Positions 1,635 through 5,957 of a stretch of 12,688 nucleotides of DNA are shown here, piece after piece. Both the position numbers and the translations under genes were made by a program. Every line of letters begins with the position of its first letter. Position 1 is the stretch's first letter. Source of the stretch: Spirosoma sp. (lineage in GTDB: Bacteria > Bacteroidota > Bacteroidia > Cytophagales > Spirosomataceae); NCBI GenBank assembly GCA_025351545.1, contig JANXVQ010000116.1, positions 1-12,688 on the forward strand. The letters are read 5' to 3'. A model generated the notes under the pieces. It saw nothing but the letters and a program-made list of their open reading frames with translations. It searched no databases and was not told the origin of the DNA.

Positions 1635-2813
1635 CTAGATCGTATCCAGGCCAATAGCGCTCGAATCAATTATAGCTGCTTGTCGATGGTGATCTGACGA
1701 GTTTCCGGAAAGTCGTTCATGGATTGGACCGGATTTGTCTTTCAAAAATCCGCCCGCTCCCTTCGTGAAAAATGCTTTGATTTCAGCCATGATCGACAAG
1801 GCGATTTCATCAGGCGTTTCGGCCCCTAAGTCCAGCCCAATAGGGGCATGAACCCTTTTCAGGGAGGTCTCACTGAAATTCAGCCCATCCTTTAAAAACT
1901 CTTCCTTCATCTTATCGAACCGTTTGCGTGGCCCTAACATGCCAATGTAGGGCACATCGGTCGTGAGGAGTTTTTCCAGTACAGCACGGTCGTAATTGAA
2001 GTTGTGCGACATCAGTACGGCGGCTGTTCTGTTGGTAATTGTAAGCTGGTCGATAACGGCTTGCCGATCGGCATACAATACGCAGGTAGCCACCGGAAAC
2101 CGCTTTGGCGACAGGTGAGCTATGCAATCGTCGGTAACGGTTACCTGCCAGCCGAGTTCACGGGCCAGTTTGGCTACCGGCACAACATCGTAGCCCGCAC
2201 CAAAGATAATTAGCTCAATACCAGGGTCAATTCGTTCAATAAATACCTCAACACTTCCCGATAAAACTGGATACGTTCTGGTCAAAGGTTTGCCCGTACC
2301 AAATACGTCGCTCATATCCTTATGCAGCCAACCGGGTATGGATTCAGCCGTTTGATCGGTGAGAATAAACCGGTTGCCGGGAATCAAGCCTGTAAAATCG
2401 TTGCTTTTCAGGACAGTTGCCAACGCTCGAACATCGCGTTTCTGGGTAAATTCTTTTAGCAGCGTAACTGGATTTTCTGCGCTACTGGGGTTGATCGGCT
2501 CGATTAATACATCAATTATACCATTGCAACCCAGACCGACACCAAAGCTATTTTCCCCGTCGTCCATTGTATCGTATGTGACAACAATAGGCTGGCCATC
2601 GAGCATAACCTGCCGGGCTTTTCGTAAGGCATCACCTTCCAGACAACCACCACTAATGGCCCCTTCCCAGCGGCCATCGTCGGTAATGAGCATACGGGCA
2701 CCGGGGCGACGATAGGATGATCCTTCGACCCAAACCACGGTTGCCAGAGCGGCTTTCCGTTGGGAGAAGTCAATTTGTTCAAAAACCTCAACAATGCGAC
2801 TGATTTCTTTCAT
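1635..2813 (-). CDS. xdhC: XdhC/CoxI family molybdenum hydroxylase maturation factor
   Basis: A 392-residue cytoplasmic protein that in characterised systems binds molybdenum cofactor, promotes its sulfuration and inserts it into xanthine dehydrogenase-like enzymes. The N-terminal XdhC/CoxI domain carries GSSYRRPGARM at residues 31-41, GGCLE at 55-59 and GLGCNG at 93-98. The C-terminal Rossmann domain begins with FGAGYDVVP at 204-212, followed by the typical MSHNFNYD and YIGMLGPRKR segments. The frame extends four codons further to a TTG at 2825. I prefer the ATG at 2813 because it places the first helix (KEISRIVEVFEQI) at the N-terminus. The mocA-like gene follows 2 bp downstream. The gene is separated from iorB by a hairpin-rich gap of about 235 bp, so it may be only partly co-transcribed with the enzyme genes. 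Confidence 0.93.
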   Translation of the reverse strand: MKEISRIVEVFEQIDFSQRKAALATVVWVEGSSYRRPGARMLITDDGRWEGAISGGCLEGDALRKARQVMLDGQPIVVTYDTMDDGENSFGVGLGCNGIIDVLIEPINPSSAENPVTLLKEFTQKRDVRALATVLKSNDFTGLIPGNRFILTDQTAESIPGWLHKDMSDVFGTGKPLTRTYPVLSGSVEVFIERIDPGIELIIFGAGYDVVPVAKLARELGWQVTVTDDCIAHLSPKRFPVATCVLYADRQAVIDQLTITNRTAAVLMSHNFNYDRAVLEKLLTTDVPYIGMLGPRKRFDKMKEEFLKDGLNFSETSLKRVHAPIGLDLGAETPDEIALSIMAEIKAFFTKGAGGFLKDKSGPIHERLSGNSSDHHRQAAIIDSSAIGLDTI

Positions 2814-2851
2814 GAACCAATTCAATAAACTATCGTAGTCATAGCATTTTT

Positions 2852-2999
2852 GTGCGGTCAGATTCTCAAATCTGACCAGTGCGGTCGGTTACTTCTAACC
2901 GACCGCACTGGTTTCTCAAAACCAAATAGGACGAGGTTTTGAGAAACCTCACTGGTCAAATTTAAGAATCTGACCGCACCGGCAAGAATCTGACCGCAC
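2852..2999. repeat. Array of REP-like hairpin units with two-fold symmetry
   Basis: A noncoding cluster of adjacent hairpins fills most of the gap between iorB and xdhC. Unit 1: stem GGTCAGATT (2856-2864), loop CTCA, matching arm 2869-2877. Unit 2: a perfect 17-bp stem, ACCAGTGCGGTCGGTTA (2875-2891), loop CTTC, arm 2896-2912. Unit 3: TGGTTT (2909-2914), loop CTCA, arm 2919-2924. Unit 4: GAGGTTT (2933-2939), loop TGAG, arm 2944-2950. Unit 5: GGTCAAATT (2955-2963), loop TAAG, arm 2967/8-2976, one mismatch. A 16-base direct repeat, AAGAATCTGACCGCAC, sits at 2964-2979 and 2984-2999, and its complement begins unit 1. Loops of the left units read CTCA/CTTC and those of the right units are complementary in type, so the array is roughly symmetric about 2929. 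No U-tract follows, so these are not standard terminators. Confidence 0.9.
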
Positions 3000-3048
3000 A
3001 CTCTGACCTCACACAAGTCAGTTTGTATGGGAAAACCCTGATAACGAA

Positions 3049-5304
3049 TTAAACTTTCTCCAAATTAAAGGGTAATCGACGGATGCGCTTGCCGGTGGCG
3101 GCAAAAACCGCGTTGGCTAAAGCGGGTGCCAAAGGCGGCAGACCCGGCTCACCAACACCCTTGATTACTGGTCCGCCTTCGGCAAGAATGTGGACTTCGA
3201 TTTCCGGCATCTCGTTGATACGCAGCATGTGGTTCGTATCAAAATTTTTCTGAACAGCCTGACCGTTCTCAAACGTGATTCCGTCTTTGGTGGCGGCTGT
3301 CAGGGCCATCACAATGGCGCCTTCTACCTGCGCTTTCACCGTATCGGGATTAACAACGGTGCCAAGGTCAATAACGCAATAAACCTTATCGACCTTTACG
3401 CCACCAGCTTTATCTTTTGACACTTCCACCACTTGCCCGGCCAGTCCCGCAAAAAATTCCCACTGGGCAACACCGCGTCCTTTACCCGCAGGAAGCGGTT
3501 TATCCCAACCAGAAACCTCTTTTAATTTCAGAAGTACCCGTTTTGCATCACTGTCTTTCGTCATCATCGACAGCCGAAACGCTAGTGGATCCTGTCCCGC
3601 TTTATGCGCCATTTCGTCGATAAAGCATTCGTGGGAGAACGCCAGCGTCGAACTCGTCACCGACCGCCAGTATGTAAGCGGAATGTGAATATCGGCATGG
3701 ACATAGCGGGTATTTAAGTTCGGAATTTCATATTTCTGCTCGTTGGTGGCTTCGAGCATAGTGCTGTCGGGCTTTGTCTTGTCGTATGTCTGGTTCATCG
3801 TCGCGTCGATAGACGGCGAAATGACCTTGTGCTGAAGGGCTATCGCTTTGCCATCCGCAGACAATGCCCCGCGCATGGCGGAGAATGTCATTGGTCGAAA
3901 CGGACCGAGTGTCGTATCATCTTCACGAGTCCAGACCACTTTAACGGGTTTGCCAATGGCTTTTGAGAGCAACGTTGCTTCGGTAGCAAAATCCTGCGTC
4001 AATCGCCGACCGAAACCGCCCCCGTTGAACAAAATGTGTACGGTTATATTATCGGCTGGTACTTTGAGCACTTTCGCTACCTCATCTCTAACCAGATCGC
4101 CACCCTGCGAAGAAACCCAAATCTCAATTTTATCGCCCGGCGTGGATGCGCCCGGCTTGTAATGCGCCAGCGCATTCATCGGCTCCATTGTTGAATGGCT
4201 CACGATAGGTGTTTCGTAAAGCGCTTCAAGCTGGTTTGGTGCATTGGCAAACGTTTTGTCAAAATCGCCGGTATTGTGCCCTACTACGCCATCCGTTTTA
4301 GCTAATTCGCGTAAATTTTTCTCGAAATCAACAGAATTGAATGTGTCATGGCCCTGATGATCCCATTTCACCTTGAGCGCTTTCCGGCCTTGTAAGGCAG
4401 CCCAGTAATTGTCGGCGATAATAGCGACACCATCGTAATGGTTTTTGCCAATGACACGCTCCACTTTTACCGCTTGCCGAACGCCTTTAACTTTCAGTGA
4501 CTGAGCCGCGTCGAAACTGACCAGCTTGCTTCCGAATACCGGGCACCGTTCGATGGATGCATAAACCATTCCCGGAACTTTTGCATCAATGCCAAACGTC
4601 GCTTGTCCCGATACTTTCATCGGGATATCCAGCCGGGACATCGATTTGCCCAGCATTGTAAACTGTTTCGGGTCTTTCAGTTTCGGGTCCTTCGGAACGG
4701 GTAGTTTGGCGGCTGGTTCAGCTAACAGACCATAGGCTAGTTTCCGGCCGGTGGGTTTATGAACAATCGTGGCGTTTTCGGCAAAACATTCTTCAACCGG
4801 AACGTTCCACTGATTACTGGCCGCTTTGATAAGCATCTCACGGGCCGACGCACCTACTTTTCGCATCTGCGTGTAACCACCCCGAATGGAGCCGCTGCCG
4901 CCCACCGCCTGCGACCACATACCACCATATTTGCTTTCGCCCCCGGTTTGACGGATAACGACTTTATCTAACGGCACTTCCAGTTCCTCGGCAATCAGCG
5001 CCGGAACAGATTGATAAGTTCCCTGCCCAATTTCGGGGCGGGGATTCATGATGGTAATCCGTCCCGATTTCTCGATGAGTATGTAAGGCGTGAGCTCAAC
5101 CGACTCAGGGAGAGCCAATCCAGGCCGGGCCAATTCAGGATGACCCAATCCAGGATGGCCACTAAGATTTAGTATTGGGCTGGCGAGACTATCGGTCGAC
5201 GAAAAGCCAAGCGCAAAGGCCGTACCGGTCAGGCCCGCAGCTTTTAGGAAATTTCGACGGCTCGTGCCGGTTTCGTTTCCAGTAGGAGTGGGGTTTATGC
5301 TCAT
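3049..5304 (-). CDS. Molybdopterin-binding subunit of an IorB-like molybdenum hydroxylase, Tat-exported
   Basis: Large catalytic subunit (751 residues) of the xanthine dehydrogenase superfamily, closest in layout to isoquinoline 1-oxidoreductase beta subunit (IorB). It should hydroxylate a carbon of an aldehyde or N-heterocycle using water; the substrate is unknown. The N-terminus has a twin-arginine motif, SRRNFLK at 15-21, followed by a hydrophobic stretch, so export to the periplasm is expected. GGGFGRRL is a typical cofactor-contacting motif, and GVGEP near the C-terminus holds the expected catalytic glutamate (Glu719). A 5-residue repeat region follows the Tat signal (about 48-67). The ATG overlaps the iorA-like stop as ATGA, indicating translational coupling. 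No FAD subunit gene is adjacent, as in Ior-type enzymes, which pass electrons to other carriers. Confidence 0.92.
5100..5159 (-). repeat. In-frame 15-bp tandem repeat within the iorB-like gene
   Basis: On the plus strand, three 15-base units are near-identical: 5115-5129 (CCAATCCAGGCCGGG), 5130-5144 (CCAATTCAGGATGAC) and 5145-5159 (CCAATCCAGGATGGC). A more degenerate fourth lies at 5100-5114. Each encodes five residues, giving a Gly/Ala/His-Pro-Gly/Glu-Leu type repeat between the Tat signal and the folded enzyme. The multiple-of-three unit keeps the reading frame, so copy number could vary and lengthen or shorten this linker. Confidence 0.8.
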
Positions 5305-5807
5305 CGCTTACCGATTTTAGGAGTTGTTTTGGGCATTTTAGGGCTGGATGCCATTTCTGCCGACGCCGTGTGAATGGCCTGACGAATGCGGCCATACGTA
5401 CCACAGCGGCAGATATTTCCCTGCATGGCCGTATCAATATCGTTGTCGGTAGGCTTGGGTGTTTGTTTCAGAAGGGCCACCGCCGACATGATTTGCCCGG
5501 ATTGGCAGTAACCGCACTGCGGCACCTGATGCTCCACCCAGGCTTTTTGCACAGGGTGATCGGCGTTTTTAGAAAGTCCTTCGATGGTTGTTATTTTCTG
5601 ACCAACCACTGCCGAGACGGGAACGCTACATGAGCGGGTAGGATTACCATCCAGATGGACAGTGCAGGCTCCGCATTGGGCAATACCGCAGCCAAATTTA
5701 GTGCCCGTCAGGCCAACCACATCGCGGATAGCCCACAACAGCGGCATATCAGGGTCTACATCCACGGTATGTGCCTGATTGTTAATCGTCAATTTCAAAG
5801 ATGCCAT
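5301..5807 (-). CDS. 2Fe-2S subunit of an IorA-like molybdenum hydroxylase
   Basis: Small electron-transfer subunit (168 residues) carrying two 2Fe-2S clusters. The N-terminal plant-type ferredoxin domain has Cys40, Cys45, Cys48 (CGIAQCGAC) and Cys60. The C-terminal helical domain has Cys98 and Cys101 (CGYC) and Cys133 and Cys135 (CRC). All eight ligands of the family are present. It passes electrons from the molybdenum site of the partner encoded immediately downstream. The frame opens at a TTG two codons earlier; I chose the ATG at 5807-5805, which starts at the first beta strand ([10 protein letters not shown]). No signal peptide is present, so if exported it must travel folded with the Tat-tagged large subunit. 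A lysine- and proline-rich tail of about 17 residues follows the domain. This is the first gene of the minus-strand operon. Confidence 0.94.
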
Positions 5808-5836
5808 AGCCAATTACGGATAATGATTGAATATGT

Positions 5837-5856: not shown

Positions 5857-5957
5857 GCTGATTTTTATGATGCCGGGCCGCCGATGCGGTTAAGCGTACT
5901 TATGATTTTATACTTTTTAGTTAGAATCGAATCATATTTATCATAAAAATCAGCGTT
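5854..5957. repeat. Perfect 18-bp inverted repeat spanning the divergent control region
   Basis: AACGCTGATTTTTATGAT at 5854-5871 is exactly complementary in inverted order to 5940-5957, with 68 bases between. The arms sit about 47 bp upstream of the iorA-like start and 72 bp upstream of the regulator start. The spacer contains a second nested pair, TATGATT at 5901-5907 and AATCATA at 5930-5936, and a small GC hairpin (CCGC-CGAT-GCGG, 5880-5891). The full noncoding gap is 5808-6028; no gene is seen in it. It may be paired binding sites for DNA looping, a structured transcript, or the ends of a small nonautonomous element. Confidence 0.85.

Follow-up and report, generated by a model that had tools for sequence, protein, structure and literature searches.

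A general rule relating RAYTs to REP sequences has been given in PMC2817692, and several RAYT repeat systems have been described. TnpA_REP enzymes of other systems cleave single-stranded REP at CT (one system also at CA) beside the hairpin (PMC8266576). The E. coli enzyme is dependent on the GTAG tag and needs a bulge, the Sm and Mb systems are dependent on specific loop positions, and the REPtron Sm enzyme needs a mismatch-free stem, block changes of the stem letters having a milder, moderate effect (PMC8266576). TnpA_REP subclass 2.6, which corresponds to Bertels RAYT group 5, was described as possessing 'atypical secondary structures', and the same survey of 2018 notes that the structures of the Bacteroidota RAYT subclass have no consensus tag and need manual inspection (PMC6006769). 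CGTC-3 of Agrobacterium tumefaciens has two stem-loops in its spacer, and it was suggested that heterodimers may escape palindrome clearance (PMC3733652). Our literature search found no description of RAYT repeats of Spirosoma or its family.

Here we analyze a block of hairpins at positions 2852-2999 of the window (i.e., the whole stretch of 12,688 nt of Spirosoma sp. DNA that was studied). With a probability of roughly 0.88, this block belongs to a Spirosoma family of REPIN/BIME-type non-autonomous repeats, the family of a RAYT (TnpA_REP), and is larger than the canonical copy by one more hairpin and two additional half units. The family displays features by which REPs and REPINs are recognized (many copies, extragenic location, an inverted doublet around a spacer, a RAYT flanked by the repeats) and follows the general RAYT-REP rule (PMC2817692). 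An initial annotation, based on the letters of the window alone, had read the block as a modular REP-like family; the copies, their placement, the covariation and the flanked RAYT support this reading.

Like the REPINs (REP doublets) of Pseudomonas fluorescens SBW25 (PMC3116915), the Spirosoma repeats are inverted palindromes around a spacer, are extragenic, occur in many copies in the presence of a RAYT and are predicted to form a hairpin as a single strand. They differ from the SBW25 REPINs in that each half has two hairpin segments, most folded full copies are cloverleaves, the tag is GTG-N, the stems are widely variable, the loops are near-constant and the host belongs to the Bacteroidota (PMC3116915). 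The canonical REP tag is GTAG, whereas the Spirosoma tag is GTG plus a variable letter. With respect to the Sm system, the family looks like a natural counterpart, as tag and loop are kept and the stem is paired but variable (PMC8266576). With subclass 2.6 it shares a Bacteroidota RAYT with NH[LIV]H and YIH-NP type motifs, an SS motif, the lack of a canonical GT[AG]G and the presence of copies elsewhere in the genome; for the repeats themselves, this comparison is by description (PMC6006769). CGTC-3 of A. tumefaciens and heterodimer-rich families are similar in being hairpin dimers with complementary or stem-loop spacer ends and often differing partners, but they carry a CGTC tag, and, according to PMC3733652, no RAYT is flanked by CGTC units. 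Bacteroidota RAYTs with atypical structures are thus already known (PMC6006769), and the Spirosoma family is a newly defined example with an unusually elaborate four-armed shape. It gives a RAYT of that general Bacteroidota kind a defined partner repeat, and its natural variation lets one read what the enzyme may need (tag, loop, paired stem) and what it may not (stem letters). Less expected are the cloverleaf layout, the difference that mostly exists between the two outer arms, and the presence of arrays inside a MITE in the window genome.

The hairpin block in the window

The Spirosoma assembly to which the window belongs as one of 1028 contigs comprises 5.07 Mb (hereafter, the window genome). 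Five stem-loops had been counted in 2852-2999 in the initial annotation, and the sequence confirms five as the minimum and adds two half units. The loops are CTCA, CTTC and CTCA on the left and TGAG and TAAG on the right, i.e., complementary between the two sides as had been claimed, and unit 4 is indeed an exact inverted copy of unit 3. The GTGCGGT/ACCGCAC edges, noted as recurrent, do recur within the block, but the exact GTGCGGT-edged form is rare in the window genome. Two inverted arms of 34 nt (2852-2885 with 2946-2979) are 91% complementary. The features of the block and its right border, none of which has a strand, are:

2852-2877, no strand: unit 1, GTG tag (2852-2854) and outer hairpin GGTCAGATT-CTCA-AATCTGACC (2856-2877)
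2875-2912, no strand: unit 2, double-foot hairpin GTGCGGTCGGTTA-CTTC-TAACCGACCGCAC (2879-2908), extended to a perfect 17-bp stem
2910-2923, no strand: unit 3, left half of the central arm, GGTTTCTCAAAACC
2924-2934, no strand: central spacer, unconserved between copies
2935-2952, no strand: unit 4, right half of the central arm, GGTTTTGAGAAACC plus TCAC; unit 3 inverted (2935-2948)
2954-2979, no strand: unit 5, outer hairpin GGTCAAATT-TAAG-AATCTGACC (2954-2975; one A.C mismatch in the stem) and CAC foot (2977-2979)
2984-2999, no strand: partial unit, right arm and CAC foot alone (AAGAATCTGACCGCAC), an exact repeat of 2964-2979
3002-3012, no strand: second partial unit, TCTGACCTCAC, a 75% direct-repeat match
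3002-3040, no strand: MITE-like right end, ending in GAAAACCCTG, 87% identical over 39 nt to MITE-like elements of the same genome

Because of the two partial right-hand units at 2984-2999 and 3002-3012, the block extends to about 3012; beyond it, a transposon-like end reaches 3040. The block folds as DNA with -53.4 kcal/mol (mean of shuffled sequences -15.4, z -13.8) and as RNA with a z of -13.0, in both cases with 0 of 200 shuffles as good. The most stable whole-block fold is a long outer stem enclosing unit 2 and the unit 3/4 arm. A known structured RNA family was rejected, as a search of the window against Rfam gave 0 matches at gathering thresholds.

Copy number and distribution of the family

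A BLAST search with 2826-3048 retrieved 38 segments in the window genome (the window itself included) and, among relatives, matches in 7 of 19 genomes, all of them Spirosoma. For wider searches we used the pattern GTCNGNTNCTNANANCNGAC, in which 13 letters of the outer hairpin are fixed and three pairs and one loop position are free, with the reversed pattern as control. It matched the window genome 77 times (one match lies inside unit 1, at 2857-2876), versus 0 for the control. Among 36 Spirosoma genomes, 29 had at least one match and 15 at least nine, with a maximum of 129; 14 of the 29 positive genomes have just 1-4 matches, little over the 0-2 matches per genome of the control. In the whole order (291 genomes), at least one match was present in 42 genomes, the top count outside Spirosoma being 10. 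These copies exclude that the block is unique in its genome, and the 38 BLAST segments and 77 pattern matches, together with the z-score of the fold, rule out a chance palindrome or a one-off structure. The exact GTGCGGT-edged form, searched with a stem-constrained pattern, occurs at 2 places in the window genome, and the broader pattern GTGNGGT...ACCNCAC at 18 (3 for its reversed control); the rarity of the exact form indicates that the true edge is GTG followed by variable letters. All array counts are based on patterns and BLAST rather than on a covariance model.

A plasmid-borne family was rejected, as a plasmid collection yielded no family match. A phage origin was rejected as well: viral contigs gave a single exact match of a 20-base core pattern, a lone hairpin of which about 280 surrounding bases were read. 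This lone central hairpin core lies at 5894-5913 of the predicted viral contig IMGVR_UViG_3300032118_002471 (L311).

Architecture of complete arrays

Twenty-four complete arrays were extracted from four genomes (the window genome, G009, G011 and G020), the criterion being outer stems with 6 or more bp and no mismatch; 23 of them were aligned, and L050, which consists of two fused arrays, was dropped. The first half of an array consists of a GTG foot, an outer hairpin whose core is 8 bp long, a short linker and GGTTTCTNAAAACC or a close variant; the second half consists of GGTTTTNAGAAACC or a close variant, a linker, the inverted outer hairpin and a CAC foot. The two halves are separated by a central spacer of 11-34 nt in the aligned arrays, all 23 of which also contain the core of unit 3. 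In the canonical copy, two GTG-tagged hairpins in inverse orientation enclose a long central arm.

The GTG and CAC feet are invariant in 23/23 aligned arrays, and the fourth letter of the tag is variable, GT[AG]G being fitted by GTGG copies only. The loop is CTTA, CTCA or CTAA in standard orientation in 40 of the 46 outer hairpins of these arrays; among the loops of the 77 pattern matches in the window genome, CTCA was found 42 times, CTTA 29 times, CTAA 6 times and CTGA 0 times. Four of five arrays from elsewhere (L041, L046, L230 and L231) fold as DNA into a cloverleaf that consists of the foot, a hairpin on each side and a ~20-bp central arm, whereas the L002 array and the window block adopt a fold with a long outer stem instead. 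At many places in G020, a single double-foot hairpin stands alone (e.g., GTGGTGTCGGTTTCTCAAAACCGACACCAC).

The two outer arms of an array are unequal in 22 of 23 cases. The second stem position is unlike in 17 of 23 arrays (11.6 expected), and only 147 of 20000 random pairings were as high; the total of stem differences between outer arms was 43 versus 36.9 (1170 of 20000 random pairings), and the number of arrays with equal arms, 1 versus 2.6 expected, was not significant (4920 of 20000 as low). Of these measures of the unlike-arm bias only that of the second position is strong, and several of the arrays are closely related to one another. This preference for unlike outer arms agrees with the suggestion that heterodimers may escape palindrome clearance (PMC3733652). 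The odds seem to us evenly balanced that these repeats represent a new REPIN architecture, i.e., a four-way-junction (cloverleaf) element that preferentially combines two unlike outer arms drawn from a small set of stem words (mostly C[AG]G-N-T-N), in which tag and loop are the only fixed recognition letters, and for which transport as MITE cargo in the window genome is a second means of spread. If this were true, unlike arms would prevent a perfect long palindrome and yet retain two RAYT sites.

Compensatory changes in the stems

At the three free pairs, Watson-Crick pairing was found in 71, 71 and 76 of the 77 pattern matches of the window genome (shuffled means 41.7, 30.6 and 66.7) and in 48, 48 and 49 of the 52 matches of G020 (shuffled 26.3, 16.9 and 23.5), an excess that shrinks when identical strings are counted once. 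In the alignment of 23 arrays, 96.1% of the cloverleaf pairs are formed, and 78 two-sided changes were counted, versus 24.3 after shuffling (0/500) and at most 17 with the partner slid. The 100% pairing of the outer stems in this alignment is by construction, as perfect stems had been selected, and the free-position pattern sample is therefore the fairer test of covariation. The other test that was not selected for pairing concerns the linkers flanking the central arm, which vary between copies and are complementary within a copy at 96 of 138 positions (permuted mean 63.4; 0/20000). The central claim of the initial annotation, that stems change in pairs while loop and edge are kept, is borne out by the free-pair counts and the alignment, the edge being reduced to GTG, and random stem changes are excluded by the excess of two-sided changes over shuffles.

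Paired changes could also result from template-switch copying within the palindrome (hairpin self-correction in replication), without any selection for recognition. One-sided states are rare (13 of 231 cells in the window genome are not Watson-Crick, of which 4 are G.T and 6 A.C, i.e., with no preference for G.T), and the central linkers are complementary within a copy though they are not obviously a recognition site, both of which speak for such copying. Nevertheless, we regard it as an improbable explanation, as it gives no reason for the near-constant loop, the constant GTG, the small stem vocabulary and the association with a RAYT. For a repeat that belongs to a RAYT, varied stems with constant loop and edge would be expected if the stem letters can change freely provided that pairing is preserved.

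The cognate RAYT

Y1 transposases were searched for with the PF01797 and NF047646 profiles, and many genomes possess several of them. One clade, the members of which share 66-100% identity, is present in 6 of the 36 Spirosoma genomes, including the window genome. All six places pass the NF047646 cut-off in the genome scan; for the three proteins scanned (from G011, G009 and the window genome), the scores were 105.9, 96.8 and 104.1 bits, with a cut-off of 80. The second His of HuH and the Tyr are invariant in 30 aligned homologues. The best PDB match of the AlphaFold model of the G011 protein (pLDDT 90.9) is 4ER8 (E 9.3e-10), a RAYT crystallized in complex with a REP hairpin; 4ER8 is also the best, but weak, match in a sequence-profile search (E 0.005). 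The gene of the window genome runs into a contig end, so that residues 1-9 are missing from the sequence, and encodes SHIH where other members have NHIH. Of the subclass 2.6 motifs NH[LIV]H, WQ and YIH[QN]NP (PMC6006769), the first agrees with most of the members read, and so does the third (N or T, and YMH in one case); the second is W[ET]D, not WQ, in the members read.

Family hairpins are found close to 6/6 genes of this clade and at 0/57 other Y1 loci fetched, of which 48 are from Spirosoma. Arrays are located on both sides of the gene in G011. Hairpins stand on both sides in G020, G006 and G009 as well, in G009 as an array on one side and only a central-arm hairpin on the other. In G033, one flank of the gene carries a full array, and the opposite flank a single imperfect hairpin. 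The gene of the window genome has hairpins on one side, the other side lying beyond the contig end. A RAYT-type Y1 transposase gene, which the initial annotation had proposed to look for, is thus present in the window genome itself and is adjoined by family hairpins. This presence of family hairpins at all six genes and at none of the other loci identifies the family as the REPIN/BIME-type repeat of a Bacteroidota RAYT.

The six genomes with the cognate RAYT have 52-118 pattern matches each (Mann-Whitney p 0.0007 versus the other 30). Among these 30, four (G021, G024, G025 and G032) have 60-129 matches in the absence of a RAYT of the cognate clade, and the rest have at most 30; in G024 and G025, only relatives with 32-39% identity are present, and these are not flanked by family hairpins. 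These four hairpin-rich genomes are the main unexplained point: the enzyme may have been lost, a more distant enzyme may act, or there may be another driver. The other Spirosoma Y1 transposases were rejected as partners, since the 57 fetched loci carry no family hairpins and several have hairpins of their own.

On the mechanism, we propose that a single-stranded copy, presumably on the lagging strand, would fold into the cloverleaf. The RAYT (HuH motif, catalytic Tyr) would recognize and bind the hairpins by their GTG tag and their CT[TCA]A loop, provided that the stem is well paired. It would then cut beside them and move the element, by pasting or copying, to a place between genes.

Different hairpins accompany Y1 transposases in G010 (L124), G004/G032 (L096/L170) and G009 (L100), namely TGGTCCGTG-GGGA, CGCGGGT-GGAA and ACGGAC-TTTA, which means that several RAYT/REP-like pairs coexist in the genus. 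In Flavobacterium sp. SUN052 (L115), a RAYT with 58% identity is flanked by GTG-type hairpins (2376-2403 and 3030-3260) in a like layout; their stem and loop words are other ones, GGCAGGTC-CCCC and GGGTTCCCCGAACCC. With the cognate RAYT in 6/36 Spirosoma genomes and this Flavobacterium homologue, the co-divergence of enzyme and repeat becomes directly testable.

Genomic placement and the gap upstream of xdhC

Intergenic positions were called by an ORF heuristic, with shifted positions as controls. In G020, 34 of 38 loci are intergenic (10 of 228 shifted positions), the gaps being between same-direction genes in 24 cases, convergent in 9 and divergent in 1. For G011 and G009 together, 26 of 32 loci are intergenic (11 of 192 shifted), with 17 same-direction, 7 convergent and 2 divergent gaps. 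In the window genome, the count is 20 of 24 loci (8 of 115 shifted), or 18 of 21 distinct places, as three places had been counted twice; L021, which has no match, was dropped. The intergenic bias for which a check had been proposed is therefore present in all three sets.

The window copy is located in the gap between two genes of a co-directional, operon-like set:

1635-2825, minus strand: maturation gene of the xdhC/coxI family, on the downstream side of the array; its homologues begin with MKEISRIV or a similar sequence (2813)
3049-5304, minus strand: molybdopterin-enzyme (MoCo) large-subunit gene (MoCoBD_1, MoCoBD_2), upstream of the array
5301-5813, minus strand: [2Fe-2S] small-subunit gene

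We read the xdhC loci of 29 relatives. The MoCo-xdhC gap was resolved in 23 of them, where the gene pair is kept and the gap is 1-239 nt long, and within 900 nt upstream of xdhC the hairpin patterns occur in none of the 29. As the array is absent from the gaps of these relatives, it most simply arrived in the window lineage after the split from them, loss in the relatives being the alternative. We observed neither a transposition event nor an empty site whose flanks match, and the gaps of the relatives have diverged too far for alignment by eye.

It could be argued that the array is kept for a role in RNA: the MoCo large-subunit transcript would carry a cluster of hairpins at its 3' end that stabilizes, terminates or attenuates it before xdhC, and any mobile palindrome landing there would be retained. 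Besides the position of the array between co-directional genes of one operon-like set, this idea draws on the relatives, as 13 of 21 of their gaps contain sequence-unrelated hairpins with z < -3, compared to 4 of 16 control gaps (Fisher p 0.045; L286, a near copy of L285, and L302, with a 1-nt gap, were excluded), and on the scarcity of copies in divergent (promoter) gaps (1/34 in G020, 2/26 in G011 and G009). A first, smaller control set of 6 gaps had contained 2 with z < -3. However, 8 of the 21 gaps have no hairpin of z < -3, the control set of 16 is small, and 3 of the 13 intergenic places of the window genome with both neighbors called are divergent. Furthermore, terminator-like sites are not clearly above background (2 versus a shuffled mean of 0.9, sd 1.0), so that an intrinsic terminator was rejected, and no promoter-like signal clearly exceeds background. 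An RNA role would also leave the family, the association with the RAYT, and the fixed loop and tag unexplained, and we consider it doubtful as the reason for the presence of the array. The array might set relative transcript levels here, an effect proposed in the initial annotation, the only and weak hint being the unrelated hairpins in the same gap of relatives. Long hairpins of unrelated sequence are frequent in the gap between the MoCo large-subunit and xdhC genes of relatives (L282-L308).

MITE-like elements carrying arrays

In the window genome, family hairpins are also found inside a MITE-like element, the ends of which are CAGGGYTTTCTTATA and which is accompanied by 10-bp target duplications. 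As in MITEs of insertion sequences, some arrays thus lie within an element with inverted ends and target duplications; this holds for a subset of the arrays only and was not seen around the arrays read in relatives. Judging from the ends and the duplication, the transposase of these elements is probably of the DDE type.

Such an element, with the array as cargo, might have delivered the window copy in place of the RAYT. The MITE end (at most 1 mismatch) is present at 39 sites in the window genome versus 0 in the control, complete elements with family hairpins inside are bordered by 10-nt direct repeats (TATGATACAA, CTTACTCAAA and GTCAACAAAT; the repeat of a fourth element is imperfect), and 3002-3040 of the window is 87% like the right end of these elements. 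Neither a left MITE end nor a target duplication was recognized beside the window copy, though, the arrays of G011, G009 and G020 read by eye show no MITE ends, and delivery by a MITE does not explain the flanks of the RAYT genes. We therefore think this route unlikely for the window copy and prefer its assignment to the RAYT family; as the copy terminates in a MITE-like end, its last move may nonetheless have been by another route.

The elements themselves vary. Four of them (L203, L207, L212 and L219, on G000:C570, C808, C882 and C1007) are ~104-175 bp long, contain one or more family hairpins and differ in the number of hairpins retained. Longer or cut elements with the same ends are located at contig ends of G000 (L205, L202, L209 and L194), and in L205 and L209 an open frame starts, possibly that of the autonomous insertion sequence of the MITE. 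A second MITE of ~195 bp (L215, G000:C934) has the same ends, an unrelated inside and a 10-bp duplication, GTATATTTGC.
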